A DNA stretch of 57,929 bases from a virus. Each line of letters begins with the position of its first letter. The stretch's first letter is position 1. Shown piece after piece: positions 19,289-51,693 of the stretch. The stretch covers positions 1 to 57,929 of the IMG/VR virus record IMGVR_UViG_3300021376_000064. One strand, written 5' to 3'. A model generated the notes under the pieces. That model saw only the letters and a program-made list of their open reading frames with translations, did no database searches and was not told the origin of the DNA. Both the position numbers and the translations under genes were made by a program.

Positions 19289-19296
19289 TATTTATA
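19289..19296 (+). promoter_or_regulatory. late-promoter-like TATTTATA motif (LysM/hub genes)
   Basis: TTATATTTATAGATAG lies 38 bases before the ATG at 19335. A CTTTTTT run just upstream has no clear hairpin. Confidence 0.5.
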
Positions 19297-19334: not shown

Positions 19335-19670
19335 ATGGAAAATAGATATAGTATTTGCACTATTGTTACTGGATCTAAAAAAATAGATTCAAAGGGTGAC
19401 ACTCATAAAGTTAGCAGATTATCTTCAACATTTTATCCACTATTGGACACCGCAGGTGATAGTATCATATTATCACAACCGGGAGACAGACTTGATTTGT
19501 TAGCAAAAGAATACTACGGTGATGAAACTTTTTGGCATGTTATAGCAATTTCAAATAATTTAGGTAGAGGTACATTGAATATACCTGCTGGTATGATAAT
19601 ACGAATACCTAGATATGCAGAATATTCTGGTATCAGTGCATTGATTAGAGTATTTAACGAGGAGAGATAA
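19335..19670 (+). CDS. LysM-like baseplate protein (gp53-like role)
   Basis: This 111-residue protein has a LysM-type pattern in its second half: QPGDRLDLLAKEYYGDETFW, then HVIAISNNLG, then LNIPAGMIIRIP. In phages, small LysM proteins between tape measure and hub stabilise the baseplate (T4 gp53 and P2 gpX type); binding to cell wall is the alternative. No signal peptide is seen, so a virion role is preferred. The gene ends 3 bases before the next ATG, which suggests translational coupling with the hub protein. The start has only a weak GGA-type ribosome site. Confidence 0.75.
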   Translation: MENRYSICTIVTGSKKIDSKGDTHKVSRLSSTFYPLLDTAGDSIILSQPGDRLDLLAKEYYGDETFWHVIAISNNLGRGTLNIPAGMIIRIPRYAEYSGISALIRVFNEER

Positions 19671-19673
19671 AAA

Positions 19674-21818
19674 ATGCCAGTATCAGGTGCAAGAGGTGGA
19701 TATGAAAGCCCGTTTTATAGACAAGTTGATGGATATGTTAGTGCAGAATTAAACACAAGAGGTTTATTTCATGGTCAAAGAGTTAGAGGAGCCAGGGCAC
19801 CTGCTCGTGGTACTGGAGGTGGTGATGCCGCTAGAAACTTAAATTGGTCATATGGAAAAAAACCTTGGTGTAGAATAGCATCAACTAGAACTACCATAGT
19901 TTTAGGAACAGCTGGATCTACTGTCATGAGCGATAGGGGTGGTAATCTTACTATGTACAGTGCTGCTAGAAATGTTCCAAATATGCCATTGTTACAAAGT
20001 TTGGATATAAGCAATGAAGGTACTATGGGATCGTTATTGAAGGGCAAGTTTACGTTTACAATATATCCAAGAATAACCACAAACGGTTTTCAAATAGATG
20101 CAATTGAAAACGCATTTTTTACACCCGGTGCTGAAGTAAATATTGCTTGGGGATGGAGTGTACATGCAAGTAATTCTAGAGCATGTAGGGGAAAGTTTAC
20201 CGGAATAATATACAACTTTAATTGGAGTGTAAATCCAGATTTGTCAATAACCGCAGAATGTTCTGTTGTATCTGCCGCTACTATTGCATCTGGTATGTCT
20301 GGTGATGTAAACACAGGAATAGATCCTGCTGCACCAGATGTTACTGTTGGAACTAATCCTTTGCCGGGTCCAAATATTGCAACTGTTATAGATAAAGACA
20401 TGGCAGATCCTGCTAGTGGTTTTGCTGCAACATTTACACAGGCACAAATGACGGCTGCATATATTGGCTATGCAGTCACAAATATGAAAATGTTAGAATA
20501 TTGGGCGATAGGATTGCCATTTCAAGAGATAGAGCCGGAAGCTACTGGTAATACTGATCCTGTTGTTAAAACACAAGGATCTGCTCAAATTGTTTCGGCT
20601 GCTCCACCTACACAACCAATTCCAAAACCATTTTATTATGTAAAGTATCAATCAATTGTTGGGTTTATCAATAAAGCAATAAATCAATTAGAAACTGGTG
20701 CAGCTGGAACGCCTGCTGGTACAGCTCATACAATGGGTAGATTATTTACTGTACAAGTTTTTGGTAATTTTACTGCATGGAGTGATCAAATTAAATCTGC
20801 ATTTCCCTTGGATATATTTTTTCCAGATGATATTATGGGACAATACGGTGGATCTTCACCTTTTACAGCTGGAACAGCTCCGTTGAGATGGTCTACTGGA
20901 CCGGCAACAATTGCTCCACCAGGAGTATTGGGTGGAAATAATATAGCTATTGGGGAAATATTAATTGGAACAGATTTTATTAAAAAAACATATAAAGAAT
21001 TTGTTGCAGAAAATGCTGCAAATATAAGTCATAAAAACTTAACGAGTTTTTTTGAAACAATATCAAAAAGAATAAATTATGCATCTGGTGACGTATATCA
21101 AATAACACCTGTTTTATATGAAGATGAAGATTTATCGAATGCCGGCGCAGCTGGTGGAGGAACAGCAGCACCTGTTCGTGCTATATTGAGTATAGAAGAT
21201 ACTAATTTGCCAAGAGAAATAATAAACGCTATTGCGCCTTTTGATTTTAGACCAGATATTTACCGTGCTATAATACGAAATGCATCTATAACATGTAAAC
21301 CACCAGCAGCATCTGCAGCGGCAGCTTACACTGCTGCTCGTGGACAAAGCAGAGGAGCAAATCAAGCAACTAACTCTGATGTCAAAATGACACCAACAAC
21401 TGGTGGAACAGGAAATGCGCCACAAATGATTGCGAATGCAAACAAAGCATTATTAGATTTACAGGCAAAATATGCAGCGGCATTAACAGATGGTTTTAAT
21501 AATGCGTGGGGTGAGCAAGTTCGTGGGTTGATAACGGCATGGAAAAAAACTTTAGCGGCATCAACAGGAATGGGTGGTGCAAACGGAAATGGTCATTGGA
21601 TGAATAAAGCCGTATATCCAATAGATTTGTCATTAACAATAGATGGTGTTATGGGATTTAAGTTCGGTGATACAATAAGATGTTTTGCAATACCATCGAG
21701 ATATAATCTAGCTCCTTGGAATGTTACATTCACCGTTACAAAAGTTAGTCACAAAATAGATGCAGGTGCTTGGACAACAACACTAAATACAAAAGCAAGA
21801 GTAAGTATGGGTGGATAA
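19674..21818 (+). CDS. probable baseplate hub protein
   Basis: A 714-residue protein, Ala/Gly/Pro-rich in linkers. Residues about 80-200 (DRGGNLTMYSAARNVPNMPLL, then GKFTFTIYPRITT, then GAEVNIAWGW) and the C-terminal block (LSLTIDGVMGFKFGDTIRC, then WNVTFTVTKVSHKID) look like the beta-barrel tube-like domains of gp27/gpD-type hubs. The C-terminal VTKVSHKI..G.W.T.L..K pattern is typical of that family in my recollection. It follows the LysM protein, the expected place for the hub that adapts the tube to the spike. The start is an ATG with GAGGAGA 9 bases upstream. The stop is directly adjacent to the next ATG. Confidence 0.7.
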   Translation: MPVSGARGGYESPFYRQVDGYVSAELNTRGLFHGQRVRGARAPARGTGGGDAARNLNWSYGKKPWCRIASTRTTIVLGTAGSTVMSDRGGNLTMYSAARNVPNMPLLQSLDISNEGTMGSLLKGKFTFTIYPRITTNGFQIDAIENAFFTPGAEVNIAWGWSVHASNSRACRGKFTGIIYNFNWSVNPDLSITAECSVVSAATIASGMSGDVNTGIDPAAPDVTVGTNPLPGPNIATVIDKDMADPASGFAATFTQAQMTAAYIGYAVTNMKMLEYWAIGLPFQEIEPEATGNTDPVVKTQGSAQIVSAAPPTQPIPKPFYYVKYQSIVGFINKAINQLETGAAGTPAGTAHTMGRLFTVQVFGNFTAWSDQIKSAFPLDIFFPDDIMGQYGGSSPFTAGTAPLRWSTGPATIAPPGVLGGNNIAIGEILIGTDFIKKTYKEFVAENAANISHKNLTSFFETISKRINYASGDVYQITPVLYEDEDLSNAGAAGGGTAAPVRAILSIEDTNLPREIINAIAPFDFRPDIYRAIIRNASITCKPPAASAAAAYTAARGQSRGANQATNSDVKMTPTTGGTGNAPQMIANANKALLDLQAKYAAALTDGFNNAWGEQVRGLITAWKKTLAASTGMGGANGNGHWMNKAVYPIDLSLTIDGVMGFKFGDTIRCFAIPSRYNLAPWNVTFTVTKVSHKIDAGAWTTTLNTKARVSMGG

Positions 21819-22493
21819 ATGGCATTTAGATCAAGAACATATTATCACCCAAGTCAAGTAGAAAATAATCTTTTCACAAATGGAAAAGAGTGGATGTCTA
21901 TTGATAATTGGAAAGAGTATATTGGACCATATCATAAATATGTTACCGGAGAAACTTATTCGGAGTCTGAATGGGATCCAAGAAAATCATTTAGACTTGT
22001 TAAATATAAGGATCGTGGACCATCATACTTCAAATATGTTGAACAAAAACAATATACAAAAAATCCAGATGGAACAAGAAAGATTAAAGTAAATCCTTTC
22101 GCTAAATTTGAATTATACACAAAGCCAATACCCATTATTAGAATACCAACGGAAAGTGAATTAAATGACGGTAAAATGATAAGACATTTTGCTTACAAAA
22201 GAAATGAACCACAAATTTTTTTCGTTGAAATATCCCCAAATCAAACAATAGATTATTATAGAGATCATGCTGGTATAAATAAATACTTGTATGAATTGAT
22301 AGATGTTCCTTGGAAGATAAACGGTCCGGAATATGATGTATTGGATGCCAACGGTTATTTGGTAAATCCAGGCGTTGTTGATACAAATAATAGAATTATT
22401 TTGCGCATTACAAAAAAAGTTAGTATATTTGATAGTATAATAAAAGATCCAAGACAATTTACAATTTATGATACTACACTAAAATTAGTCTAA
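21819..22493 (+). CDS. probable virion/baseplate protein of unknown family
   Basis: This 224-residue soluble protein, rich in Tyr, Lys and Pro, begins immediately after the hub stop codon and is therefore probably coupled to it. It contains FFVEISPNQTIDYYRDHAG and repeated aromatic-plus-basic segments, with no catalytic motif. The tight link to the hub gene points to a baseplate component, for example a wedge or hub-binding protein. It is not recognised as a named family. It is the last clear tail gene before the PolA-like gene. Confidence 0.55.
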   Translation: MAFRSRTYYHPSQVENNLFTNGKEWMSIDNWKEYIGPYHKYVTGETYSESEWDPRKSFRLVKYKDRGPSYFKYVEQKQYTKNPDGTRKIKVNPFAKFELYTKPIPIIRIPTESELNDGKMIRHFAYKRNEPQIFFVEISPNQTIDYYRDHAGINKYLYELIDVPWKINGPEYDVLDANGYLVNPGVVDTNNRIILRITKKVSIFDSIIKDPRQFTIYDTTLKLV

Positions 22494-22496
22494 CTT

Positions 22497-23708
22497 ATGT
22501 TCCAAGAAAAACCTTCGGTTTGCATTCCAATCATAAGCAATGCAAACAAACACCAATCTGCAGTTGGCATTATCGGTATGTATTTTTTATTTACCGATGG
22601 TGAAGAACATTACATAAACTTTACACATCCAGATGAAGTAGATACAGACATTCATTTGAATGAAATAAAATTGCATCCAAAAACACTTGTATTGAATAAG
22701 AAGGCATTAGTCTATAACGGTTTTAATGATGGTATCGATCTAAATTCATATCTACATTATTATACATCAGACAGTATCAATCCAAAAGAATTTTATCCGA
22801 AGGGTATGGAAACGCTTGTCAATAAATTTTACAAAATAGAAGATTTAGGCCATGTAATACCACTTTCAAAACAATTAGAATGGGCAAGAAAGATTGCAAA
22901 ATATGTTATGAAGATTTATGAAGATAATCCAATTGAACAGAAATGTATAGATTACTGCAATGACTTTATCACAGTATTGCATGAAATAGAGAGAAATGAT
23001 ATTCTTGTTGGTGATGAATGGAAGAAACAAAACTATATGTGGTATACTGCAACTGGTAGACCAAGTAACGCTTGGGATGGTTTTAATTTCTCCGCAATGA
23101 ATAAGAAAAACGGTAGTAGAGATAAAATCCGTTCAAGGTTTGACGATGGCAAAATAGTTCAGTTTGATTATGATGCATTTCATATTAAACTACTTGCTAA
23201 GATATTGGATTATCAATTCCAAAGTCATCCGTATGAACAAATAAAAGATGAATTAGGAATTGACATGGACTATGAACAATTCAAAGGAAAAGTTTTTCAG
23301 AACATATATGGAACTATAACTCCAGAGTTTATAGAACATCCTTTCTTTACAACTGTTCAAGCAATGATTGATGAACTGTATTCGGTATATGAAACCGATG
23401 GTATAGTTAAGTCTTGGTTTTACGAAAAGAATTTCAGAGATATTCAAGATGCAACTCCCAATAAAGTATTCAATTATGTTCTTCAATCATTGGAAACCGA
23501 ATACAATGTTCGTAAGATAAAAAGTATTTTACCGCATATACAAAATAAGAAGTCGGTGTTTATGATGTATCTGTATGATGCTTTTGTTTTTGATATTCAT
23601 CCAGATGAAATGGATTTAATTGATGTTTTACAGTCTGCATTTGAGACAGATAATATGTCAGTAAAAATTTACACGGGAGACAATTTTGGTAGTATTCTAC
23701 AAATTTAA
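22497..23708 (+). CDS. small family A DNA polymerase-like protein
   Basis: In this 403-residue protein the C-terminal 220 residues carry the order of PolA palm motifs: TGR (186-188); motif A with Asp224 in QFDYDAFHIKLLA (compare DYSQIELR); an O-helix motif B with the K-x3-F-x3-YG spacing (K263, F267, Y271, G272); the N-x3-LQS segment at about 326-331; and motif C with Asp361 in MYLYDAFVFD (compare VHDE). Both metal-binding Asp are kept. The Glu after motif A is His, the motif B Arg is Tyr, and the motif C His and Glu are Tyr and Ala. Residues 1-150 show no intact 3'-5' exonuclease motifs. It starts 3 bases after the preceding tail gene. Polymerase activity is plausible but unproven. Confidence 0.8.
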   Translation: MFQEKPSVCIPIISNANKHQSAVGIIGMYFLFTDGEEHYINFTHPDEVDTDIHLNEIKLHPKTLVLNKKALVYNGFNDGIDLNSYLHYYTSDSINPKEFYPKGMETLVNKFYKIEDLGHVIPLSKQLEWARKIAKYVMKIYEDNPIEQKCIDYCNDFITVLHEIERNDILVGDEWKKQNYMWYTATGRPSNAWDGFNFSAMNKKNGSRDKIRSRFDDGKIVQFDYDAFHIKLLAKILDYQFQSHPYEQIKDELGIDMDYEQFKGKVFQNIYGTITPEFIEHPFFTTVQAMIDELYSVYETDGIVKSWFYEKNFRDIQDATPNKVFNYVLQSLETEYNVRKIKSILPHIQNKKSVFMMYLYDAFVFDIHPDEMDLIDVLQSAFETDNMSVKIYTGDNFGSILQI

Positions 23709-23713
23709 GATGA

Positions 23714-23721
23714 TATTTATA
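23714..23721 (+). promoter_or_regulatory. late-promoter-like TATTTATA motif
   Basis: TGATATTTATATTG lies 5 bases after the PolA-like stop and 34 bases before the TTG start at 23756. Confidence 0.5.
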
Positions 23722-23755: not shown

Positions 23756-24145
23756 TTGAAGACACAATTAGTATGTACATTTACGAGAAAACATAGCGTA
23801 GAAGAAACGATAGATACAATTAAAGAAAATTTTTCTATATTGAATAATAAAGTATTTTTATTTAAGTCTTTGGAAACAAGAGAAGATTCTTTATTGTCAT
23901 ACAATGTCATAATGGACAGTTACAAAAAATTCCTTCCAAATTCAATAATGGTTCACCAAAAACGTGAAACTAATACCATATACACTATAAATGCATTAAA
24001 TGAACTAATTATGAACCTGAACAACGGTATATTGGATAAAACATATCCGATAGAATGGGAAAGGTATCGTAATTGCGCACTATTAAAAAACAAAGATGGA
24101 TTTCGTGTAGTAAAGATATTTTTGGTAAAAGTCTATAATTGGTGA
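23756..24145 (+). CDS. conserved-type phage hypothetical protein
   Basis: The protein has 129 residues and a TTG start preceded by GAGAGAG; no better ATG lies in frame near the start. The opening (KTQLVCTFTRKHSVEETIDTIKENF) and the block TNTIYTINALNELIMNLNNG with a C-terminal WERYRNCALL look like a small protein seen in T4-like phages, where its role is unknown. It is soluble, without membrane or metal motifs. It lies between two late motifs and is probably its own late transcript. Confidence 0.6.
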   Translation: MKTQLVCTFTRKHSVEETIDTIKENFSILNNKVFLFKSLETREDSLLSYNVIMDSYKKFLPNSIMVHQKRETNTIYTINALNELIMNLNNGILDKTYPIEWERYRNCALLKNKDGFRVVKIFLVKVYNW

Positions 24146-25965: not shown

Positions 25966-25970
25966 TAAAA

Positions 25971-25992
25971 TGGGAAATCTTCGGATTTCCCA
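25971..25992 (+). terminator. UUCG-loop hairpin terminator before SSB
   Basis: A perfect 9-bp stem TGGGAAATC/GATTTCCCA is closed by the very stable C(TTCG)G tetraloop. TATTTATTTATAG follows instead of a pure T-run. Confidence 0.8.
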
Positions 25993-25996
25993 TATT

Positions 25997-26125: not shown

Positions 26126-26881
26126 ATGGCTATTAACCTAGATGCAATCAAGAGTCGTTTGAACTCTCTAAAAAACACAAACAATCGCACATCTAACATT
26201 TGGAAACCCGATCCGGGTGAAACCCAAATCAGAATTGTTCCCTACATTCACAACAGAGAAAATCCGTTTATCGAATTGTATTTCCATTACAATTTGGGTA
26301 AGAGGTCTATTCTTTCTCCTGCATCATTTGGTCGTCCTGATCCAGTGGTTGAGTTTGCAGAAAAACTTAAACAAACTGGTGACAAGGAAGATTGGGTAAT
26401 GGGTAGAAAATTGGAACCTAAAATGCGTATCTATGTTCCTGTTATTGTTCGTGGTCAAGAAAATGAAGGTGTGAAGTTTTGGGGATTTGGTAAACAAATC
26501 TATGAAGAACTGCTTGCTTTCTTTGTTGATCCTGATTACGGTGATTTGTCTGATCCAAAATCTGGTCGTGACATTGTTGTTACCGTTAAGTCACCAGAAG
26601 AAGCTGGTAAAACTTATGCAGAAACAAGTATTCGTGTTAAACCAAAAGAAACACCCATTACAGAAAGTGCAGACGTTCTTGAAAAGATTAAGTCACAACC
26701 ACAAATTACAGAATTGTATCCAGAACCATCTTATGATGATTTGAAGATTCAATTGCAAACTTGGATGGGTGCTTCTTCACAAGAAGAAGAATCAAAGGAC
26801 CTTAATTACAAACAAGAAAAGAGTGAGAAGCCATCTACATCTGCTGAAGATGTCGGTGTTACATTTGATGATTTATTTTAA
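26126..26881 (+). CDS. single-stranded DNA-binding protein (gp32-like)
   Basis: At 251 residues it is shorter than T4 gp32 (301). It coats single-stranded DNA in replication and recombination. The basic N-terminus (INLDAIKSRLNSLKN), the OB-fold opening NIWKPDPGETQIRIVPYIHN, the FIELYFHYNLGKRSILSPASFG strand pair, YVPVIVRG and KFWGFGKQIYEELL are diagnostic of gp32 homologues in large phages. The C-terminus is Ser/Glu-rich and ends in an acidic VGVTFDDLF tail, the protein-interaction tail of this family. The Cys zinc ligands of T4 gp32 are absent. GGAGA lies 7 bases upstream and UvsX follows by 12 bases. Confidence 0.92.
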   Translation: MAINLDAIKSRLNSLKNTNNRTSNIWKPDPGETQIRIVPYIHNRENPFIELYFHYNLGKRSILSPASFGRPDPVVEFAEKLKQTGDKEDWVMGRKLEPKMRIYVPVIVRGQENEGVKFWGFGKQIYEELLAFFVDPDYGDLSDPKSGRDIVVTVKSPEEAGKTYAETSIRVKPKETPITESADVLEKIKSQPQITELYPEPSYDDLKIQLQTWMGASSQEEESKDLNYKQEKSEKPSTSAEDVGVTFDDLF

Positions 26882-26893
26882 TAAGGGTGAGTT

Positions 26894-28042
26894 ATGGCAA
26901 AATCAAAGAGTGATCTTTCCGATGAACTCGGTGGGCTCATTGCCGAAACTATAAACAAACAATTCAAAACTCAAAACATTAAGACCGCTTACTTTCTTGA
27001 AGGTGATAGTGATGCACCTACGATAGTAAAAGAATGGGTAGGAACTGGCTCAACCATGTTGGATTTGGCCATTTCCAATCGTAAGTATGGTGGTTTTCCT
27101 GTTGGTCGTGTATCTGAAATAACAGGTCTCGAACAATCTGGTAAATCTCTATTGGCAGCCCATGCACTTCTTAACACACAAAAGAAAGGTGGTCTTGCTG
27201 TTTATATTGATACCGAGAATGCAATATCAACTGAATATCTAACCGCAATCGGTTTGAACTTAAAAGATATGTTATACATTCCATTGGAAACAGTAGAAGA
27301 TATTTTTGAAACAGTTGATGTTATCATTGATAAGGTTCGTTCATCCGATAAAGATAGATTGGTAACGATAGTAGTTGATTCGATAGCCGGTGCATCCACT
27401 AAAACAGAAATGGCTGCAGACTTTGATAAGGATGGTTATGCTACGGCAAAGGCACTTATCATTTCAAAGGCAATGAGAAAGATTACAAATCTTATTGGTA
27501 GAGAGCGTATTTGTTTGATTATTACAAATCAACTTCGTCAGAAATTAAATGCCCCAGCATTTTCTGATCCTTGGACAACACCGGGTGGTAAAGGTATTCC
27601 TTTCCATGCTTCTGTTCGTCTTCGTCTTTCTTCAATCGGTGCCATAAAAGCAAAGAGAGAAGGTCGTGATGAAATTGTTGGTTCAAGAATTAAGGCGAAA
27701 TTGGTAAAGAACAGAGTAGGTCCTCCGCTGCGTGAATGTGAATATGAAGTTTATTTTGATAGTGGTATAGATGATTATTCATCATGGCTAACTGTGATGA
27801 AAGAACACAATCTTGTTTCTCAATCTGGTGCATGGTATTCATGGACAGACAAAAGAACCGGAGAAGTCATTAAGTTTCAATCAAAGGAATTTGTTGAAAA
27901 GATTATGAGTAATCCCCAATTGTATGATATAGTTTATGATGAAATCGCTGAGAAAGTAATTATGAAATATAAGAAACTGGATGAGGCACGCATAGATGAC
28001 GTAACACTTTCCGATGAACCATTATTACAAGATGAAGTATGA
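26894..28042 (+). CDS. uvsX: UvsX/RecA-like recombinase
   Basis: At 382 residues it is close to T4 UvsX (391). It catalyses strand exchange for recombination-dependent replication. Walker A is GLEQSGKS (78-85) and Walker B lies in VTIVVDSIAGAS at about 155-165. RICLIITNQLRQK is the L2-proximal core strand, and TTPGGKGIPFHASVRLRL is typical of RecA/UvsX. The C-terminus is acidic. It forms a unit with SSB upstream and the 5' nuclease downstream (ATGA overlap at its stop), matching the need for SSB-UvsX cooperation. No UvsY candidate was identified. Confidence 0.95.
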   Translation: MAKSKSDLSDELGGLIAETINKQFKTQNIKTAYFLEGDSDAPTIVKEWVGTGSTMLDLAISNRKYGGFPVGRVSEITGLEQSGKSLLAAHALLNTQKKGGLAVYIDTENAISTEYLTAIGLNLKDMLYIPLETVEDIFETVDVIIDKVRSSDKDRLVTIVVDSIAGASTKTEMAADFDKDGYATAKALIISKAMRKITNLIGRERICLIITNQLRQKLNAPAFSDPWTTPGGKGIPFHASVRLRLSSIGAIKAKREGRDEIVGSRIKAKLVKNRVGPPLRECEYEVYFDSGIDDYSSWLTVMKEHNLVSQSGAWYSWTDKRTGEVIKFQSKEFVEKIMSNPQLYDIVYDEIAEKVIMKYKKLDEARIDDVTLSDEPLLQDEV

Positions 28043-29085
28043 ACCGTAAATATCAAAGACTTTTACAAGAAATAGAAACAGAAAAACAAGAACAAGAAAA
28101 CCTACATCGTGATAGTAAGGTTTTGATTGTAGATGGGATGAACCTTTTTATACGCACATTTTCTGCCATCCCAACCCTAAACGAAGATGGCATTCATGTT
28201 GGTGGATTATCTGGTTTCTTGAAGTCTCTTGGAGCAACAATCCGTATGGTTAATCCCACGCGGGTTGTTGTAGTCTTTGATGGTAAGGGTGGTTCACAAA
28301 GAAGAAAAGAAATTTATTCAAACTATAAGGAAGGTAGGGCAATCAAGTCACGGTTAAACCGTGTAGTTGGGTTTGAAGATATTGAAGATGAACAATCCTC
28401 AATTAAGTATCAACTGTTTCGTGTTTTTTCATACCTACAAAATTTGCCACTAACAATAATCTCCATTGATAAAATAGAAGCAGATGATGTGATTGCCTAC
28501 CTTTCTTCTTATTTCAAAGAAAAATGTGTAATACTTTCCAATGACCGAGACTTTTTACAATTGGTTTCGGACAGAGTTAGTGTTTATCTGCCAACCAAAA
28601 AGAAGATGTATACACCTCAAAATTTATTGGAAGAAACTGGTATATGGTGTGAGAATTATATCATATACAAATCTTTACTTGGCGATAAGAGTGATAATGT
28701 AGTTGGCATTCGTGGTCTCGGTGACAAAACGATATTAAAATTATTTCCAGAATTATCAGAAAAAAGAAAAATAAATTTGGAAATGTTCGTAGAAATTTGT
28801 AAATTACATGATAATAAATCCAAAGCAATTCAAGAATTAAAGAACAACCTAAATGTATTGCAAACCAATCATAGAATAATGCAATTAAGTGATGTTGAAA
28901 TTTCACAAAGCACCAAATCAACATTAAGACATTTAGTTGATGGTGAAATTGACGGTATAAATAAAGTTGAACTGAATAAACTATTTGTAGAAGATAAACT
29001 ACAAAATGTTTTATTGAATTGGGATGTATGGGTTCAAAATAATTTTACAACATTAAATTCCATTAGGAACAAATATGCAGGATAA
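28039..29085 (+). CDS. 5'-3' exonuclease / RNase H (FEN family)
   Basis: At 348 residues it is slightly longer than T4 RNase H (305). It removes RNA primers and flaps on the lagging strand. The PIN-like N-terminus VLIVDGMNLFIRTF holds the first metal Asp. VVVVFDGKGGSQRRKEIYSNYK matches the family core, and KIEADDVIAYLS with ILSNDRDFLQL give further metal ligands. SLLGDKSDNVVGIRGLGDKT is the helix-hairpin-helix/H3TH DNA-binding region with its own Asp residues. It starts inside the UvsX stop (ATGA) and its end overlaps the helicase start by 11 bases, so the three genes are tightly coupled. Confidence 0.93.
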   Translation: MNRKYQRLLQEIETEKQEQENLHRDSKVLIVDGMNLFIRTFSAIPTLNEDGIHVGGLSGFLKSLGATIRMVNPTRVVVVFDGKGGSQRRKEIYSNYKEGRAIKSRLNRVVGFEDIEDEQSSIKYQLFRVFSYLQNLPLTIISIDKIEADDVIAYLSSYFKEKCVILSNDRDFLQLVSDRVSVYLPTKKKMYTPQNLLEETGIWCENYIIYKSLLGDKSDNVVGIRGLGDKTILKLFPELSEKRKINLEMFVEICKLHDNKSKAIQELKNNLNVLQTNHRIMQLSDVEISQSTKSTLRHLVDGEIDGINKVELNKLFVEDKLQNVLLNWDVWVQNNFTTLNSIRNKYAG

Positions 29086-30427
29086 TTTATCCCAATATGG
29101 TCATACCTTTCAGACAAAAGTAGTCACTTCATTATTAAACGATAGAGCATTTTTACAACAAGTTTCAGATATTATCGAACCAAATTATTTTGAGTCTCAA
29201 GCAAATAGTTGGGTTGTTGAAAAGATAATGTCCTATTATGAGAAGTATAAAACTGCACCAACTGCTGAAGTTTTCAAGTCTGAATTGATTACCGTTGAAG
29301 ATAAAGTTTTGAAGAGCACTATTGCAGATGCTCTGAAAGAAAGTGCAAAGTATAAAGATAGTTCTGATGCAGAATATGTTAAATCAACTACTCTTGAATT
29401 TTGTAAAAATCAAAAGATGAAAGTTGCAATTATTGAGTCGGTTGATTTGCTTAAGAGTGGTAAGTATGACCTTATCAAAAAGAAAGTTGATAATGCACTC
29501 AAAGCCGGAACTGACAAAGATATTGGACATGAATATCTTGTAGATATTATTGCTCGTTATGAAGAAGGTGCAAGAAGTTGTGTATCTACTGGTTGGAATG
29601 TAGTTGATGATATTACAAACGGTGGATTGGCTGCTGGTGAGTTGGGTGTTATCATTGCTCCTGCCGGTGGCGGTAAGTCTTGGGGATTGGTAAGTATCGC
29701 CGCTCAAGCAGTTAAGGCCGGTAAGAGAGTTGTTTATTATACACTTGAACTCAATCAGTTTTATGTTGCAAGAAGATTTGATGCTTACTTTACAAAGATT
29801 GCATTTCAAAATCTTAACGAAGAATATGCACAAGAGAAAATCCGTGATACAATGGAAACTATCAAAGGTGACTTGATTGTAAAGTATTATCCAACCAAAA
29901 CTGCAAGTATCACAACAATTACATCACACATTGAGAAGTGTATAAGTCAAGGCAAACCACCAGATTTGGTTATCGTTGATTATGCAGACTTGATAAGACC
30001 ATCAAAAGCCGGTGATAAGAGATTGGAACTAAATGATATTTATGAAGACTTGCGTGGTGTTGGTGGAACTTATGGAATACCTATTTGGACTGCATCACAA
30101 GCAAATCGTTCTGCTCTCGAAGATGATGTGATTGAAGGCGGTAAGGTTTCAGAATCATATAACAAAATTATGATTGCAGATTTTATTATGTCACTATCGA
30201 GAAAACTAAATGATAAAGTCGGTGGAACAGGCAGATGGCACATTATTAAAAATCGTTTTGGTCCAGATGGTATGACATTCCCAAGTAAAATAAATACAAT
30301 GACTGGCCACATTGAAATATACGAACCAAGTTCTGACATGGGACAGAGTGTTCAAACATCAATGAAAGGTGATGTTAATGTTAAGAAAGCTCTTTCACAA
30401 AAGTTCAAAGAATTAGAAGGTTTTTAA
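29075..30427 (+). CDS. replicative DNA helicase (DnaB/gp41-like)
   Basis: At 450 residues it is close to T4 gp41 (475). It unwinds DNA 5'-3' at the fork as a hexamer. An N-terminal DnaB-like helical domain spans about 1-150. The RecA-type ATPase core opens at GWNVVDDITNGGLAAGELGV. Walker A (APAGGGKS, about 195-202), VVYYTLEL (motif 1a), Walker B LVIVDYADLIRP (about 297-308), the WTASQANR sensor and the KNRFG arginine-finger-like motif complete it. The start overlaps the end of the nuclease gene. No primase was recognised in the window. Confidence 0.93.
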   Translation: MQDNLSQYGHTFQTKVVTSLLNDRAFLQQVSDIIEPNYFESQANSWVVEKIMSYYEKYKTAPTAEVFKSELITVEDKVLKSTIADALKESAKYKDSSDAEYVKSTTLEFCKNQKMKVAIIESVDLLKSGKYDLIKKKVDNALKAGTDKDIGHEYLVDIIARYEEGARSCVSTGWNVVDDITNGGLAAGELGVIIAPAGGGKSWGLVSIAAQAVKAGKRVVYYTLELNQFYVARRFDAYFTKIAFQNLNEEYAQEKIRDTMETIKGDLIVKYYPTKTASITTITSHIEKCISQGKPPDLVIVDYADLIRPSKAGDKRLELNDIYEDLRGVGGTYGIPIWTASQANRSALEDDVIEGGKVSESYNKIMIADFIMSLSRKLNDKVGGTGRWHIIKNRFGPDGMTFPSKINTMTGHIEIYEPSSDMGQSVQTSMKGDVNVKKALSQKFKELEGF

Positions 30428-41205: not shown

Positions 41206-41517
41206 ATGAAAAATTTACATGTCTATAAAAAAGGTATCATACTTGAAACTGCACCATATTACAACTTTGATACCGAAGATTTTACAGATATGTCTCATAT
41301 AGTAGAGTATGACAATAAAATATACCAAATATTATGTAATTCTTTCGGTGAATTGAATGAACCAGACGAAGAAGCAATTCCTCTGGAAGAAACAGATGAT
41401 AGAGAAAATATGCCTGACACTAACTTTTTTGCTGGGATGGACTCAAATAGTGGGTTTTCTTTATCATCCATATTCTCAAGTATAAAAGACATACAAATAG
41501 AAGGTGATGAATTTTAA
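41206..41517 (+). CDS. small acidic hypothetical protein
   Basis: This 103-residue protein starts at an ATG with an excellent GGAGG site at 41195-41199. The N-terminal half is a compact alpha-beta sequence (KNLHVYKKGIILETAPYYN); the C-terminal half is acidic and Ser-rich (ESEE-type, NSGFSLSSIFSSIKD) and probably disordered. No motif was recognised. It follows the giant virion protein by 15 bases and may be its small partner or chaperone. A promoter for thioredoxin lies directly after it. Confidence 0.55.
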   Translation: MKNLHVYKKGIILETAPYYNFDTEDFTDMSHIVEYDNKIYQILCNSFGELNEPDEEAIPLEETDDRENMPDTNFFAGMDSNSGFSLSSIFSSIKDIQIEGDEF

Positions 41518-41529
41518 TAAAGTATTTGC

Positions 41530-41560
41530 TTGCTTTTTATTTCAAAAATTCATATATTTG
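41530..41560 (+). promoter_or_regulatory. sigma70-type promoter for thioredoxin/dUTPase genes
   Basis: TTGCTT, a 17-base spacer, then TATATT followed by TG (TATATTTG at 41553-41560). It is nearly identical in design to the SSB promoter and lies 31 bases before the ATG at 41592. Confidence 0.6.
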
Positions 41561-41591
41561 ATTATACATTTTTAACAATATGTAATATATT

Positions 41592-41849
41592 ATGATTACA
41601 ATAAAACATTTCACAGCAGCATGGTGCCAACCGTGTAAACAATTAACGCCAATCATACAAAAAATAGTTGGGGAATATCCAATGATTGGCTATCAAAAAA
41701 TAGATATTGATCAAAATTCAGAAATAGCACAACAATATGGTGTTCGTGCAGTTCCAACTGTTTTGTTTGAAAAACATGGTAAAGTAGTTCAGCAAGTTGT
41801 TGGATTAAAACCAATGTCATATTACGAACAAATTATCAATAGTCTTTAA
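41592..41849 (+). CDS. thioredoxin
   Basis: At 85 residues it is a short thioredoxin fold. The active site is WCQPCK (WCxPC with Gln) at about residues 11-16, followed by IGYQKIDIDQN, the cis-Pro loop VRAVPTVLFEKHGK, and VVGLKP. It is probably the electron donor for the class II ribonucleotide reductase encoded at 31804, as phage thioredoxins and glutaredoxins are for their reductases. It starts a small nucleotide-metabolism group (PLP enzyme, dUTPase) and has its own early-type promoter. Confidence 0.93.
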   Translation: MITIKHFTAAWCQPCKQLTPIIQKIVGEYPMIGYQKIDIDQNSEIAQQYGVRAVPTVLFEKHGKVVQQVVGLKPMSYYEQIINSL

Positions 41850-44414: not shown

Positions 44415-45641
44415 GTGGAAGAAGATTATTTCCAACAATTTTACGGAATGAATCCGTATCTATCCATAACTGCTGAACAAATAACATACATAAAAGAAAA
44501 CTTTGATAAAGAATATGTCAAAGACCGTCTGGCTGAAATAGCAATGACATATCCACTACCGTATGCGGATATTACAATCGAAAGTGCTCAAAGCGAGTTT
44601 CTAAAATTGAAAGGTATTCGTTGGAATGAAATTCTAAAAGAAGGTGAGTGGTTTCCAAGAAAAGCATCCGAACCAAAATATGCTTTGACTTATGGTGGAA
44701 AACAGTTATATTTCAGTCGTCTTAATACTGGTAACGATGCATCAAACTATTTCCAACAAAAGAACCGTTGGGAAGTTGATGCATCCGTATCACCAGGTCC
44801 TGCTAGAACATGGCAAAACCATAAGTTTATGAAGTCACTTATGGGTTCTATGTATTCTCTTAAAATGGAAACAATCGGTAAATCAGAATTGAGAACAATG
44901 TTAGGATTGCGTAAATACATTTGTTCACAGTTCAAACCTAATGTTGCAAAGTGTATGTACGAAATGTTAGGTGCAAAAAATGTATTAGACTTTTCTATGG
45001 GATGGGGTGACAGACTTGCGGGATTTTACGCTGCCTCTTGCACCGAACATTATGTTGGATTGGATCCAAGAGTAGAAAACCATCCGATATATGATGAACA
45101 AGTCCAGTTCTATGAAAAGAATTTAGGTTTCTTTGAAGGTAAGAAGAAAACAAATTTCTATCAATCACCAGCAGAAGATTTTGATTTCTCACAATATCCA
45201 GAACATTTTGATTTGGTGTTTACATCACCACCGTATTTCAATGTTGAGAAGTATTCACAATCAGATACACAGAGTTGGGTTCGATATAAAGGAATTGATA
45301 TGTGGAATAAAGATTTTCTACAAAAGACACTAGGAAATATTATACCATCATTGCGAGTTGGTGGTGTCATGGCAATAAACATTGCAGATGTTTACACAAA
45401 TTCCGCATGGTCTACGGGTAGACAATGGTTAGAGATAACAAACCCGATGAATGATTTTCTTGTAGAGAGTGGAATGGAATACTTGGGATGTATCGGAATG
45501 GAAATGTCCAAAAGACCTAACTCTGCCGGTGCAGGAACAGCTACAAGAGACGGACACTTTCTTGATGATAGTGTTCAGTTTGCTCAAGAGAATAAAGATA
45601 AAAAGTTTTGTGAACCAATATGGATGTTCAAAAAGGTATAA
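44415..45641 (+). CDS. DNA methyltransferase-like protein, paralogue 1
   Basis: This 408-residue protein has a GTG start after AAAGG. SAM-binding motif I is VLDFSMGWGDRLAGF (about 190-204), the following acidic strand is YVGLDPRVEN, and catalytic motif IV is FTSPPYF (269-275), an amino-methyltransferase S-P-P-Y box. A SQSDTQSW segment follows at about 281-288. The N-terminal 185 residues are a unique domain that may recognise the target. The short I-to-IV spacing fits a gamma-like arrangement acting on adenine N6 or cytosine N4. The same core recurs at 48940 and 50564. It ends 1 base before the polymerase gene. Confidence 0.8.
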   Translation: MEEDYFQQFYGMNPYLSITAEQITYIKENFDKEYVKDRLAEIAMTYPLPYADITIESAQSEFLKLKGIRWNEILKEGEWFPRKASEPKYALTYGGKQLYFSRLNTGNDASNYFQQKNRWEVDASVSPGPARTWQNHKFMKSLMGSMYSLKMETIGKSELRTMLGLRKYICSQFKPNVAKCMYEMLGAKNVLDFSMGWGDRLAGFYAASCTEHYVGLDPRVENHPIYDEQVQFYEKNLGFFEGKKKTNFYQSPAEDFDFSQYPEHFDLVFTSPPYFNVEKYSQSDTQSWVRYKGIDMWNKDFLQKTLGNIIPSLRVGGVMAINIADVYTNSAWSTGRQWLEITNPMNDFLVESGMEYLGCIGMEMSKRPNSAGAGTATRDGHFLDDSVQFAQENKDKKFCEPIWMFKKV

Positions 45642-45642
45642 T

Positions 45643-48159
45643 ATGTATCAAAACATTTTTGTTAAAACAAATACAAAAGAAGCATGGGTGTGGGATGATG
45701 CCAAAGGTTTGATGCATTTTGAATACACGCCTTATGCTTACAAGAAAGATCCTAACGGTAAATATATTTCTCTATACGGTGATAAACTTTCAAAGGTTAC
45801 AAACTTTGTAAAGAATGATCCTGACCTATTTGAATCGGATATTGCAGAGACAACTCGTATTCTTGTTGATATGTATAGTGATTCCGATATGCCCTCGAAA
45901 GGAATTGTTACAATGACATTTGATATTGAGGTTGAAATGATTACCGGTATTCCTGATCCAACACAAGGTAATAACGAAGTTACATCTATTGCTTACCATG
46001 ATTCCGCAACAAACCAATATACAATTCTTGTATTGGACAAGAAAAGAAAATTGGAAAATAAAACTACGGAAAACAAAAAAGTAATTCCTTGTCCAGATGA
46101 AAAAACTTTGTTGCTTAAATTCATAGATGCTATTCAAGAAATCCAACCCCATATTATGACTGGATGGAATTGTGATGCATTCGATATTCCATATTTGTAT
46201 AATCGTATCAAAAGAGTTCTTGGTAAAAAACAAGCAAATAGTCTTTCAGTAATTGGTGAAATGTTTTATTCACCATATCGTAATCGTTATACAATCGGTG
46301 GAACATCCGTGTTAGATTATATGACCGTGTATAAAAAATTCTCATATAAAGAATTACCATCTTATGCTCTAAACGCAGTTTGTATGACCGAACTTGGTCG
46401 TGGTAAGGTTGAGTATGAAGGCAACCTTGATGACTTGATGGAAAATGATATTGATACATTTATAGAATACAACATTACTGACGTTGAGTTGGTTATCGAA
46501 TTGGACAAGAAGTTACAGTATATTGATTTAGTTCGTGGTATCGCTCATGTTGGCCATGTTCCTTATGAAGACTTTGTATATTCATCAAAGTATTTGGAAG
46601 GTGCTATGCTTACTTATCTTAAACATATTGGCGGTGTTGTTGCTCCGAACAAACCTGCTGATAGACAAGAAAAGATGCAAGAATTGAAAGAGAGCGGTGA
46701 GAAAGGATTTATCGGTGCATTTGTTAAGGATCCTGTTCCGGGTAGATATGATTGGATGTATGACTTGGATTTGACATCACTATATCCGTCAATCATTATG
46801 ACACTAAACATTTCTCCAGAAACAAAGATTGCTAAGATTGAAGATTGGAATGCTGAGGATTTTCTTCGTGGAAAAAAAGATGAATATATTGTTGGCAATG
46901 ACCGTATATCAAAAGAAAAATTAAAAGCATTTCTTGATAAATACAAGTATACAGTTTCATCAAATGGTGTCATGTATAGTTCAGATAAAACAGGACTTAT
47001 TCCAGCAATTCTTTCAGATTGGTTTGATAAACGGGTGGAATATAAAAATGAAATGAAGAAGTGGGGTAAAGCTGGAAATACAGAAAAGTATGAGTTTTAC
47101 AAGAAAAGACAACTTGTTCAGAAAATTCTTTTGAATAGTATGTATGGTATCTTGGGATTACCTGCATTTCGTTTTTATGATATTGACAATGCAGAAGCAG
47201 TTACACTTTCTGGTCAAACGGTTATCAAGAAAACAGAAGCTGCTATCAATATGAAATACAATAAAGAATTGAAAACCGATGATATTGATTATGTGCAGTA
47301 TGTTGATACTGACTCTGTGTTTGTTTCGTGTTTACCTTTGGTGAATAATAGATTTCCGGATATTGATACAAACGATATTGAAACAATGACGCCGAAGATT
47401 TATGAGATTGCAACGGAAGTTCAAGATTATGTCAATCAATTTTATGATGTTTTTGCCAAAAAGATATTCAATACTGACAAACATCGTTTGGAAATCAAAC
47501 AAGAAATGATTGGTAGAACAGGATTCTGGCAAAAGAAAAAGAGATATGCACTTTGGATTATTTCTGATAACGGTGTTCCAATGGATAAGTTGGAAGTTAA
47601 AGGTTTGGATATTGTTCGTTCATCTTTTCCCAAATCATTTCAAAAATGTATGAAGGATGTGATGATTGATATTCTCAAAGGTAAAGATAAAAATGAAATT
47701 GATGAATACATATTGACTTTCAAAAAGAATTTGAATGATGTTTTGATAAACGAGGTTGCAAAAACTTCTTCAATAAAAGATATTAAAAAGTATGCTACTC
47801 CCGTTAAAGATGATGTTCTCGGTAAGTATGCAAAGGGAACGCCATCACATATCAAGGCGGCTATAAACTATAATAAGTTATTGACTATATTTGGTTGTCC
47901 TCCTAAATATCCGCCAATTAAAAATGGTGATAAGGTTAAGATTGCTTATTTGAAATCAAACAAATACGGATTGGAAGAGTTGGCATTTCGTGGTGATTCG
48001 GATCCAGAAGAAATTATACAATTTGTCAAGGATTATTTTGATGCCAATGAATTATTTGTTTCGGAATTGGATGGCAAGTTAAAAAATTTCTATGAGGCAA
48101 TGCAGTGGGATTTCCCAACCGAGAATAAAAAAGTTGCACAAAAGTTTTTTTCGTTTTGA
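45643..48159 (+). CDS. family B DNA polymerase (gp43-like)
   Basis: The protein has 838 residues from the ATG at 45643, preceded by AAAGG; the frame runs upstream only as overlap with the methyltransferase. It is the main replicative polymerase. Proofreading motifs are FDIEVE (Exo I, about 93-98), GWNCDAFDIPYL (Exo II) and YNITDVELV (Exo III). Polymerase motifs are DLTSLYPSI (A, about 375), KILLNSMYGILG (B, about 495) and YVDTDSVF (C, about 553). The C-terminus ends KVAQKFFSF, suitable as a clamp-binding peptide. The length is somewhat below T4 gp43 (898). The clamp gene is next. Confidence 0.96.
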   Translation: MYQNIFVKTNTKEAWVWDDAKGLMHFEYTPYAYKKDPNGKYISLYGDKLSKVTNFVKNDPDLFESDIAETTRILVDMYSDSDMPSKGIVTMTFDIEVEMITGIPDPTQGNNEVTSIAYHDSATNQYTILVLDKKRKLENKTTENKKVIPCPDEKTLLLKFIDAIQEIQPHIMTGWNCDAFDIPYLYNRIKRVLGKKQANSLSVIGEMFYSPYRNRYTIGGTSVLDYMTVYKKFSYKELPSYALNAVCMTELGRGKVEYEGNLDDLMENDIDTFIEYNITDVELVIELDKKLQYIDLVRGIAHVGHVPYEDFVYSSKYLEGAMLTYLKHIGGVVAPNKPADRQEKMQELKESGEKGFIGAFVKDPVPGRYDWMYDLDLTSLYPSIIMTLNISPETKIAKIEDWNAEDFLRGKKDEYIVGNDRISKEKLKAFLDKYKYTVSSNGVMYSSDKTGLIPAILSDWFDKRVEYKNEMKKWGKAGNTEKYEFYKKRQLVQKILLNSMYGILGLPAFRFYDIDNAEAVTLSGQTVIKKTEAAINMKYNKELKTDDIDYVQYVDTDSVFVSCLPLVNNRFPDIDTNDIETMTPKIYEIATEVQDYVNQFYDVFAKKIFNTDKHRLEIKQEMIGRTGFWQKKKRYALWIISDNGVPMDKLEVKGLDIVRSSFPKSFQKCMKDVMIDILKGKDKNEIDEYILTFKKNLNDVLINEVAKTSSIKDIKKYATPVKDDVLGKYAKGTPSHIKAAINYNKLLTIFGCPPKYPPIKNGDKVKIAYLKSNKYGLEELAFRGDSDPEEIIQFVKDYFDANELFVSELDGKLKNFYEAMQWDFPTENKKVAQKFFSF

Positions 48160-48185
48160 AATTACGCAAAAATTTCATATATTAG
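48155..48185 (+). promoter_or_regulatory. sigma70-type promoter for the sliding clamp
   Basis: TTTGAA (overlapping the polymerase stop), a 17-base spacer, then TATATT followed by AG at 48178-48185, 35 bases before the ATG. Confidence 0.6.
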
Positions 48186-48220
48186 CATAAATTATTTACT
48201 ATTCATTAAGGATTGTTGTT

Positions 48221-48940
48221 ATGGAAAAATCAAAGTTGTTGAACTTTATCAGTAAGTATCATTTGGGTAAGCTGATACAGTCTGTTGCTTGGAATGCAAA
48301 TGGTGGGCTTTCCACTCGTTTTATTTCTGATGATAAATGTGTAGTTGGCGAAGTTAAGTTGAAAAGTTTTCAAGGTGATGATTGGAAGTTTGGTGTGTAT
48401 AACACAGACTTGCTTGTAAGTCTTCTTGGTGTTCTTGGTAACACAGTAAACTTTCAAGTGAATGGTGCTGGTGATAAGGCATTCTCATTGACTATTGATG
48501 ATAAATCAACTACTGTAAATTATATGTTGGCTGACCTTGCAGTTATTCCACCTGCACCAGACTTGAAAGAATTGCCAAAGTTTGAGTTGGATATTACAAT
48601 TACAAAAGAATTTATTGATAAATTCATCAAGGCAAAGTCTGCTCTATCGGATATTGAAAAGTTTACGGTATTAAAAAATGATAAACTGAATAAGTATCAA
48701 ATTGTTCTCGGTTATTCAAATACAAATTCAAATCGTATCTCAATTGATATTGATTGTAATGCTAGTGATGATATTGAACCAATTAGTTTCTCTGCTAAAT
48801 ACTTCAATGGTATTCTTGCTGCTAATAAAGATTTGAATGGTGGAACACTCAAAGTTTCATCAGAAGGTTTGGCAAAAGTTGAATTTGATATTGATGACTA
48901 TGATGCAAAATATTATTTAGTAAAATTGGATAACAATTGA
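48221..48940 (+). CDS. sliding clamp (gp45-like)
   Basis: The protein has 239 residues (T4 gp45 228). The trimeric ring tethers the polymerase and, in T4, activates late transcription. The N-terminal KLLNFISKYHLGKLIQSVAW, FGVYNTDLLVSLLGVLG and the C-terminal ISFSAKYFNGILAANKDLNG, VEFDIDDYDAKYYLVKL follow the gp45 pattern, with two clamp-fold repeats. The start has AGG weakly upstream. The promoter of the SSB type lies 35 bases before it. The stop TGATG overlaps the next start. Confidence 0.9.
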   Translation: MEKSKLLNFISKYHLGKLIQSVAWNANGGLSTRFISDDKCVVGEVKLKSFQGDDWKFGVYNTDLLVSLLGVLGNTVNFQVNGAGDKAFSLTIDDKSTTVNYMLADLAVIPPAPDLKELPKFELDITITKEFIDKFIKAKSALSDIEKFTVLKNDKLNKYQIVLGYSNTNSNRISIDIDCNASDDIEPISFSAKYFNGILAANKDLNGGTLKVSSEGLAKVEFDIDDYDAKYYLVKLDNN

Positions 48941-50562: not shown

Positions 50563-50563
50563 C

Positions 50564-51634
50564 ATGAAACCTAACGGCGATAGTTTAAGTAAATTCTTTG
50601 ATGTTGATCCGCTAGAAGTTCGTTTGTGGAAAGAGACCGGTGAATTTTTTGCAGGTAAAAGAGAATTGGATGATACAATAGATTGTATCTTTCAGTATTA
50701 CCGCAAACACGGTTATCCATATATGAAAATTACTGAACACGAAAAACATGAACACATGAGAAAACTACAACAGTTTGATTATGATAGTATTTTCAAAGAC
50801 GGTGATATAATTCAAACCATGAACGGACTTCGGTTAGCGTGGTCATACTTTCCGCACGCGATGGAAGTTAAATGCGGAAACTCAAAGATGTCTCCAATCG
50901 ATAATTTTTTGAATGACCAAACATTCAAAATGACAATACGCAAATGTTTGAAGTGGTTGTCAAAACATTGGGGTAGTTCCTTTCAAGAGAACCGTCTTCG
51001 TCAATCACTTAAAATATATTCTGGTGTTCAAGGTGTTTCCAATTTTAGACCAACTGCTGCTGGTGTTATCTATAAAAAGTATGGTGGTGACGGTGTGATG
51101 TGGGATATGTCTTGTGGTTGGGGTGGAAGATTGGTTGGTGCTCTTGCTTCCCCTCATATTAAAACTTATATTGGAACAGAACCATCAACGAAAACATTTG
51201 AAGGTCTGTGTAAATTACGCGATGATTTTGATTATCTCGGTAAAGATATTCAATTGAATATGATGGGTTCGGAAGATTATCTTCCCGAAAAAGATAGTTT
51301 AGATTTATGTTTTACATCGCCACCATATTTCGATACTGAAAAATATGCAGATGAAGAAACTCAATCGTATAATAAATTTCCAACCCGTGAAACTTGGGGT
51401 TCTGGTTTTCTTCAATCAACTTTCCGTAATTGTTATCACGGATTGAAAATGGGTGGCTATATGCTAATAAACATAGCCAACACACCAAAGTATAAAGATT
51501 TGGAAGAAATGACTATAAAGTATGCCAACCTAGTTGGTTTCGATCACACCGATACTCTACAACTGATACTGTCCGCTGTTATGGGGGCTGGCTATAAAAG
51601 AGAGCCAATCTTCGTATTTCAAAAAAATCGCTAG
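50564..51634 (+). CDS. DNA methyltransferase-like protein, paralogue 3
   Basis: The protein has 356 residues from the ATG at 50564; the frame open from 50513 overlaps paralogue 2 and is unlikely to be used. Motif I is WDMSCGWGGRLVGAL at about 180-194, then YIGTEPSTKT (Glu in place of the Asp of paralogues 1 and 2); motif IV is FTSPPYF at about 249-255, followed by DEETQSYNKFP. The order and spacing match paralogues 1 and 2. The N-terminal 175 residues are the shortest of the three. The C-terminus GYKREPIFVFQK is shared in form with paralogue 2 (EPIFVF). Target base and sequence are unknown. Confidence 0.78.
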   Translation: MKPNGDSLSKFFDVDPLEVRLWKETGEFFAGKRELDDTIDCIFQYYRKHGYPYMKITEHEKHEHMRKLQQFDYDSIFKDGDIIQTMNGLRLAWSYFPHAMEVKCGNSKMSPIDNFLNDQTFKMTIRKCLKWLSKHWGSSFQENRLRQSLKIYSGVQGVSNFRPTAAGVIYKKYGGDGVMWDMSCGWGGRLVGALASPHIKTYIGTEPSTKTFEGLCKLRDDFDYLGKDIQLNMMGSEDYLPEKDSLDLCFTSPPYFDTEKYADEETQSYNKFPTRETWGSGFLQSTFRNCYHGLKMGGYMLINIANTPKYKDLEEMTIKYANLVGFDHTDTLQLILSAVMGAGYKREPIFVFQKNR

Positions 51635-51662
51635 GATATTAGGCGAAAATTACATATATTAG
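51632..51662 (+). promoter_or_regulatory. degenerate sigma70-type promoter for the clamp loader
   Basis: TATATTAG at 51655-51662 in the context ATTACATATATTAGTAG, 31 bases before the gp44 ATG. The -35 (TAGGAT) is poor, but the -10 context matches the SSB and clamp promoters. Confidence 0.45.
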
Positions 51663-51693
51663 TAGATGAATTTATTAACCAATAAGGTATGTT

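Follow-up and report, generated by a model that had tools for sequence, protein, structure and literature searches.

The closest described relatives of the gene analyzed here are the divPolA1 proteins, named by Yutin et al. in 2024 (Virol J 21:200, PMC11348598) in 14 phages of 155 to 190 kb, including three immuto phages, which infect Flavobacterium. According to the passages of that paper on this family, divPolA1 is found in genomes that encode a regular PolA, PolB, or PolC alongside it. It has catalytic palm residues, a truncated thumb, and an inactivated exonuclease, with conserved replication genes downstream, and it was judged most likely to retain polymerase activity and to be involved in replication. 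Related passages of the same paper describe barbaviruses that carry a regular PolB together with divPolA2. In the literature the name divPolA1 was found only in this paper and its preprint, and a search for activity data on any divPolA1 protein returned none.

The window analyzed here is the whole 57,929-nucleotide stretch of IMG/VR virus record IMGVR_UViG_3300021376_000064. A sequence-only reading had singled out one open reading frame in it as an orphan homologue of family A DNA polymerases. We confirm that this frame is a real gene. Its product, a reduced protein related to bacterial DNA polymerase I (Pol I), belongs to the divPolA1 family of Yutin et al. (PMC11348598).

22497..23708, + strand: divPolA1 gene, encoding a predicted thumb-less family A polymerase homologue of 403 aa (open reading frame, model, and homology)

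The window encodes a member of the divPolA1 family

The open reading frame was borne out in position, strand, and length, and all of the motif residues listed for it (T186-G-R188, D224, H229, Y259, K263-x3-F267-x3-Y271-G272, N326, Q330-S331, and Y360-D361-A362) were found in the protein. A segment with Asn and Leu-Gln-Ser is present as described, but its spacing is N-x2-LQS (N-x3-Q) rather than N-x3-LQS.

On its own, the window protein did not match Pfam DNA_pol_A (PF00476), even at an E value of 10, and gave only a weak match to a PHROG polymerase family (0.0021). DNA_pol_A was matched at an E value of 0.01 or better by 67 of 101 aligned relatives (best, 1.8e-12). A profile of 101 relatives returned E. 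coli Klenow as its top PDB sequence match (E value, 5.6e-5), and motifs A, B, and C coincided in that alignment; a profile from 25 sequences, mostly of the close clade, gave 0 PDB matches. Since the predicted structure also matched Klenow in Foldseek (see below), the motif matches are not due to chance. The PolA motifs, on whose presence in homologues the sequence-only reading depended, were found in the aligned relatives.

Eight records were matched by tblastn among 50,697 phage records (E value up to 1). Microcystis phage Mel-JY01, for which no literature was found, encodes a protein 49% identical to the window protein; four immuto records, in which the gene is annotated as DNA polymerase family A, gave 30% identity, and the uncultured 484-kb record LR756508 gave 31%. 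Matches to two Roseobacter phage polymerases were at noise level (E values, 0.004 and 0.03). The immuto member could be aligned along its length (30.1% identity, 92% covered, E value 4e-27). Besides this homology, the window protein has in common with it the divPolA1 traits of kept palm residues, a dead exonuclease, a cut thumb, a separate regular DNA polymerase, and replication genes downstream; it differs in that the thumb remnant between the conserved Glu and Arg is 23 residues in the window and 41 in immuto. The window record is a 57.9-kb fragment, a contig with an identical protein is 123.5 kb, and Mel-JY01 is 190 kb.

The word orphan does not hold for this gene. Pattern scans of IMG/VR returned 48, 292, at least 565, and at least 576 matching stretches, the last figure from one scan; a scan with the LR756508 protein alone was unproductive. 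The 266 full-length hits yielded 203 unique proteins, and 18 partial or broken hits, including one locus (L044) split into two frames, were left out. Values of dN/dS from 0.074 to 0.189 in 10 informative pairs of 13 computed indicate purifying selection; two of the other 3 pairs were identical and one was nearly so (2.11, a meaningless value). A host-encoded version was set aside: only 3 loci were found among 84,980 genomes scanned, and as all three lie in metagenome-assembled genomes, they are perhaps phage contigs.

The predicted fold is that of a family A polymerase with little of its thumb

AlphaFold2 modeling on a 101-sequence alignment gave a pLDDT of 95.0 and a pTM of 0.91; with the single sequence, pLDDT was only 34.9. 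Klenow and KlenTaq headed the PDB matches of the model. Foldseek returned Klenow at an E value of 6.3e-15, and VIA-align 2 aligned model residues 1 to 402 with residues 300 to 832 of KlenTaq (4n56; Z 27.6, rmsd 3.6 Å, 338 residues aligned). The PolA palm is thus found in the predicted fold, and the palm and fingers scaffold first suggested from the motifs is borne out. In the model, a vestigial exonuclease domain comes first, followed by the palm and fingers.

22497..22862, + strand: vestigial 3′-5′ exonuclease domain, approximately residues 1 to 122 (VIA-align 2 alignment from residue 1, KlenTaq residue 300; end approximate)
22992..23057, + strand: thumb remnant, residues 166 to 187, two 3-residue strands in the model (DSSP and E165-R188 spacing)

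Inspection by eye found no DxE motif in residues 1 to 122, in agreement with the earlier statement that the exonuclease motifs are lost; the region itself is still present as a predicted fold. A feature missed by that reading is the thumb, which in the model is almost wholly deleted. Only two 3-residue strands remain at residues 166 to 189, so the thumb helices appear to be gone, a conclusion that does not rely on how E165 is paired. With E165 paired to Klenow E541, on an IERNG stretch that HMMER marks as insignificant, the distance from E165 of the IERN segment to R188 of TGR is 23 residues in the window protein versus 127 in Klenow. Over the 203 unique proteins this spacing ranges from 23 to 41. 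The fingers also look shortened. D224 and Y259 are 35 residues apart in the window protein, and Y271 and N326 are 55 apart; in Klenow numbering the same two intervals are 49 and 79.

The window protein therefore resembles Klenow, KlenTaq, and Bst in fold, in exonuclease-palm-fingers order, and in motifs A, B, and C. Unlike them, it is without about 104 thumb-region residues and without exonuclease motifs, its fingers are shortened, and the residues at the Glu710, Arg754, His881, and Glu883 positions are replaced. A literature search for a "thumbless" polymerase found nothing.

Active-site substitutions are shared by the whole family

23052..23060, + strand: T-G-R (186-188), counterpart of Klenow T666-R668 (Klenow alignment and 203-protein count)
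23166..23189, + strand: motif A, D224-Y-D-A-F-H229-I-K, with the catalytic Asp kept, His for the steric-gate Glu, and an extra Asp at 226
23271..23312, + strand: motif B, Y259-x3-K263-x3-F267-x3-Y271-G272, with Tyr for the O-helix Arg (203-protein count)
23472..23489, + strand: N326-x3-Q330-S331, matching Klenow N845 and Q849 (203-protein count)
23574..23582, + strand: motif C, Y360-D361-A362, HDE in Pol I (203-protein count)

No variation was seen among the unique full-length proteins (203/203) at E165, T186, R188, D224, H229, K263, F267, Y271, G272, Y360, and D361; D226, N326, and Q330 are kept in 202 and Y259 in 201, and position 362 alternates between Ala (137 proteins) and Ser (66 proteins). 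These counts are partly selected at D224, D226, and Y360-D361-A362, which the patterns of the three larger IMG/VR scans covered, and at Y259 and K263, which one of the six patterns in the smallest scan (48 stretches) covered; in all of these scans, matching any one pattern sufficed. H229, F267, Y271, N326, Q330, R188, and E165 lay outside every pattern yielding counted loci.

By alignment with Pol I, the Glu710 position is taken by His, the Arg754 position by Tyr, and the His-Asp-Glu of motif C by Tyr-Asp-Ala/Ser; the substitutions recorded in the sequence-only reading (His after motif A, Tyr for the motif B Arg, YDA for HDE) are shared across the family, with Ser as the alternative to Ala at position 362. 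According to passages of two papers, Glu710/Glu615 at the steric gate excludes ribonucleotides (PMC9324360, PMC9738464). Searches of the literature, with few subscription papers covered, found no characterized family A polymerase with a divPolA1-type site and no steric-gate Glu-to-His change by name (E710H, E615H, or E480H).

The regular PolAs of immuto and of nine IMG/VR contigs are also family A proteins and share their genomes with divPolA1. They differ from it in size (774 to 803 aa), in having exonuclease motifs and a thumb region, and in the active site, where Glu, Arg, and His-Asp are kept in 10/10 and motif C reads His-Asp-Gln. The changed residues are therefore specific to divPolA1. 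A divPolA1 profile matched these ten proteins weakly (E value 0.024, probability 2%, few diverse sequences), with motifs B and C in register.

Like divPolA1, divPolA2 (for example AUR84708 of Vibrio phage 1.063.O, whose model Yutin et al. depict) is a second, small polymerase of PolA type that has no normal thumb. Unlike divPolA1, AUR84708 has D-F-K-A-F-E as its motif A and F-D-E as its motif C (placed by eye); divPolA2 thus keeps the steric-gate Glu, and the two families differ at this position. The organism tally of 266 records matched by AUR84708 in tblastn held no Flavobacterium, Microcystis, or uncultured phage, so no divPolA1 record was among these matches.

A separate replicase is encoded in most divPolA1 records searched

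45469..48159, + strand: complete PolB, presumed replicase (PF00136, 5.2e-40; PF03104, 4.9e-25)

These two Pfam matches establish that the window comes from a PolB phage, as had been stated. Three open reading frames around PolB (44415-45641, 48937-50562, and 50513-51634) matched N6/N4 DNA methylase domains at E values from 2.4e-4 to 4.4e-6, one of them over the Pfam cut-off. The distance from divPolA1 to PolB is 21.8 kb in the window and 21.6 kb in Mel-JY01.

When 26 divPolA1 records were searched with PF00136, PF00476, and PF07733, 10 had a full PolA, 13 had PolB, and 3 had none of the three families; no record had full PolA and PolB together. One of the 13, LR756508, has a weaker PolB split over two open reading frames as well as a PolC match; besides its divPolA1 locus, the regions of interest in this record are 47415-48068 and 260623-266900. 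The 3 records without PolA or PolB have 3 to 17 kb left downstream of divPolA1, and the contig ends before the PolB position. The PolB search itself covered 37 records, with 15 matches; 11 mostly short records, 2 of them with PolB, were left out of the PolA/PolC search. Since PolB or a normal PolA accompanies divPolA1 in 23/26 records, divPolA1 is not the replicase, and the earlier suggestion of a specialized rather than replicative polymerase is upheld. Two of the special roles listed in that reading, terminal addition and a capsid-borne polymerase, gained no support from these sequence and structure comparisons.

A FastTree tree of 25 divPolA1 proteins (15 from PolB records and 10 from PolA records) placed those of the PolA phages in one clade. 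Together with the distribution of PolA and PolB, this indicates that divPolA1 was kept across a change of replicase.

divPolA1 lies between a baseplate unit and replication and recombination genes

19335..19670, + strand: gp53-like baseplate wedge gene, which opens the unit (phrog_7145, 3.7e-10)
19674..21818, + strand: conserved 714-aa gene of the unit (no PHROG match at 0.01)
21819..22493, + strand: 224-aa gene, direct upstream neighbor, 3 bp upstream of divPolA1 (no family match found)
23756..24145, + strand: gene for a 129-aa protein, close companion of divPolA1
26126..26881, + strand: gp32-like single-strand DNA-binding protein (SSB; PF08804, 1.7e-12; phrog_1192, 5.4e-17)
26894..28042, + strand: RecA/UvsX-like recombinase (PF00154, 4.8e-50)
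28039..29085, + strand: 5′-3′ exonuclease, the kind of nuclease carried in-chain by bacterial Pol I (PF02739, 8.7e-34)
29075..30427, + strand: DnaB-like replicative helicase (PF03796, 1.9e-16)

The genes starting at 19335, 19674, 21819, and 22497 are separated by 3, 0, and 3 bp, and divPolA1 therefore closes a unit opened by the baseplate wedge gene. Upstream order was followed in 132 unique loci with 3.5 kb of sequence, which contained the gp53-like gene in 125, the 714-aa gene in 121, and the 224-aa gene in 64. Downstream, 81 unique loci with 6 kb had the 129-aa gene in 80, SSB in 79, RecA in 79, the 5′-3′ exonuclease in 78, and the helicase in 72. The sequence-only reading placed the gene beside a tail gene and coupled to it. 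The baseplate unit agrees with this, but divPolA1 also heads a conserved replication and recombination cluster, so the setting is not tail-only.

The 129-aa gene follows divPolA1 in 149/151 loci with 3 kb of room. In the phage collection it occurs in six records, the same six that encode divPolA1 (Mel-JY01, four immuto records from three isolates, and LR756508), and its best PHROG match is phrog_5996 (E value, 0.0075). Viewed from the 129-aa gene, divPolA1 was present in 58 of the best 80 of 584 relatives, while 13 loci with at least 1 kb upstream and 9 with less were without it. In the same best 80 of 584, the fraction with divPolA1 nearby was 57/70 with 1 kb of upstream room, 52/53 with 2 kb, 51/52 with 2.5 kb, and 45/45 with 3 kb. 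Such co-location does not prove co-function. The 129-aa protein was set aside as an operon partner: in many loci a promoter-like box lies between the two genes, and cotranscription is therefore not supported.

A promoter-like box follows rather than precedes divPolA1

19289..19296, + strand: TATTTATA box, candidate promoter for the baseplate unit closed by divPolA1 (46 bp upstream of the gp53-like gene)
23714..23721, + strand: TATTTATA box directly after divPolA1

On both strands of the window, TATTTATA occurs 15 times versus 9.3 expected, a number reached in 4/100 shuffles and only mildly above chance; it is the placing of the box, rather than its count, that stands out. Plus-strand copies are present in 10/10 gaps of at least 25 bp between 1618 and 25965 and in 1/9 later gaps (Fisher test, p 1.2e-4, post hoc after the pattern had been seen), and a further copy at 35668 lies inside a doubtful open reading frame. 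Both SSB and the 129-aa gene have their own box in the window. In the gaps of the structural region (1618-25965), the box stands 27 to 55 bp before start codons; before SSB the distance is 129 bp. A copy is also noted at 54684. A terminator-like hairpin of 10 pairs at 25970-25993 directly precedes the box upstream of SSB.

Within 120 bp before divPolA1, the box was found in 1/57, 0/71, and 0/60 loci of the three clades. Within 120 bp after the gene, it was found in 40/57, 73/75, and 14/62, against a background of 2.7%, and in the third clade it lies inside divPolA1 in 48/65 loci. Before gp53 it was present in 14/39 loci of the window clade and in 0/48 and 1/37 of the other clades. TATTTATA is thus a candidate phage promoter class, which was not found in the related literature searched, and we infer tentatively that it may act as a late promoter. 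Late expression, suggested earlier from the coupling to a tail gene, gains indirect support from the position of divPolA1 at the end of the baseplate unit and from a box after rather than before it, but the box is a putative promoter. Against such a role stand its scarcity before gp53 outside the window clade, its copies inside divPolA1 in the third clade, the mild excess in total count, and the separate boxes of SSB and the 129-aa gene.

Three other gaps (41517-41592, 48159-48221, and 51634-51694) have a common CATATATTAG / CATATATTTG element, seen by eye. The Bacteroidetes -7 box is TAnnTTTG. The element resembles it and may represent an early class of promoter and point to the host.

Discussion

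We propose that divPolA1 is made late and acts as a distributive polymerase that fills gaps during recombination-dependent replication or repair. It would work on recombination intermediates together with SSB, RecA, and the 5′-3′ exonuclease, with its grip on DNA supplied by a partner, and we give this reading an even chance of being correct. The proposal is supported by the predicted fold, the conserved residues, purifying selection, the separate replicase, and a near-fixed gene order; the activity, partner, timing, and role of divPolA1 are what we infer. The protein would carry out two-metal chemistry on a primer-template, as Pol I does. Without a thumb, it would release after a few nucleotides unless held by SSB or the 129-aa protein. 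Produced late, together with the baseplate proteins, divPolA1 and the 5′-3′ exonuclease would fill short gaps from recombination-dependent replication before packaging, and the job of Pol I would be divided among several phage genes. Against this reading, the replacements at R754 (Tyr) and E883 (Ala/Ser) take away chemical groups present in Pol I, so catalysis may be weak or different, and an enzyme that has lost its thumb might not synthesize DNA to any useful extent. More doubtful is a fuller version of the proposal, in which a thumb-less class with a rebuilt pocket depends on SSB or the 129-aa protein as its clamp, can use ribonucleotides or unusual 3′ ends, and is made late to complete recombined genomes ahead of packaging.

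If the His gate admits ribonucleotides, divPolA1 could be a nucleotidyl transferase with changed sugar choice that makes RNA or mixed RNA-DNA, such as primers, patches, or short transcripts. The near-invariance of the substitutions (His at the steric gate in 203/203 and Tyr at the R754 position in 201/203) is consistent with such a change, as is the retention of Glu, Arg, and His-Asp by the regular PolAs of ten phages in the group. Passages of the cited work point the same way, in that a Glu at the steric gate blocks ribonucleotides (PMC9324360, PMC9738464) and PolA was co-opted as RNA polymerase in T7-like phages, an option weighed there for divPolA2 (PMC11348598). His is bulky too, however, and may still exclude the 2′-OH, and the best structural matches among those listed are DNA polymerases. 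F267 is likewise a DNA-polymerase residue; T7 RNA polymerase has Met at the matching position. We consider a changed sugar choice unlikely. DnaG-like primase candidates were found in 8/19 records, including Mel-JY01 and immuto (mostly weak, 4/19 over the cut-off), so primers may have another source; this weakens the idea of divPolA1 as a primer maker for want of a primase.

The absence of proofreading motifs and of a thumb, in a gene near RecA and SSB, would also suit a polymerase for translesion synthesis or template switching, with a cleft open enough to accommodate damaged or mismatched ends, and Pol theta and Pol nu are among the top Foldseek rows. They do not rank above ordinary Pol I, however, and the 50 VIA rows listed are Pol I. 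Pol theta and nu bypass lesions using insertions, for which a 403-aa protein has no room, and we regard this role as distinctly unlikely.

In the window, divPolA1 shares its unit with a baseplate gene, and several catalytic-site residues are substituted. These features could instead indicate a scaffold that keeps the polymerase fold but has no catalytic activity, serving for instance in the baseplate or virion or as an SSB/RecA adaptor. Such a scaffold would have no need of the catalytic Asp pair, K263, F267, and Y271, which are invariant in 203 proteins (D224 and D361 lay inside the search patterns, F267 and Y271 outside them), and this explanation is improbable. That divPolA1 replicates the genome, or is a decaying remnant of an enzyme that did, as its conserved replication neighbors might suggest, is already contradicted by the full PolA or PolB alongside it in 23/26 records, by purifying selection, and by the lack of exonuclease motifs and a thumb, and is hardly credible.

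The divPolA1 kind is already known, having been named in 2024. Beyond the passages of Yutin et al. on the family, the present analysis adds its size in IMG/VR, the invariant His/Tyr/Tyr-Asp-Ala/Ser site, the predicted near-complete loss of the thumb in the window clade, the 129-aa companion, the link to a baseplate unit, and the promoter-like box. The family is large, and its invariant substitutions fall on residues known for sugar choice and incoming-nucleotide contact. They raise the question of whether a thumb is dispensable for a family A polymerase and whether such an enzyme tolerates His at the steric gate. A polymerase that is kept with different replicases, PolA in one clade and PolB in others, probably does something that the replicase does not.
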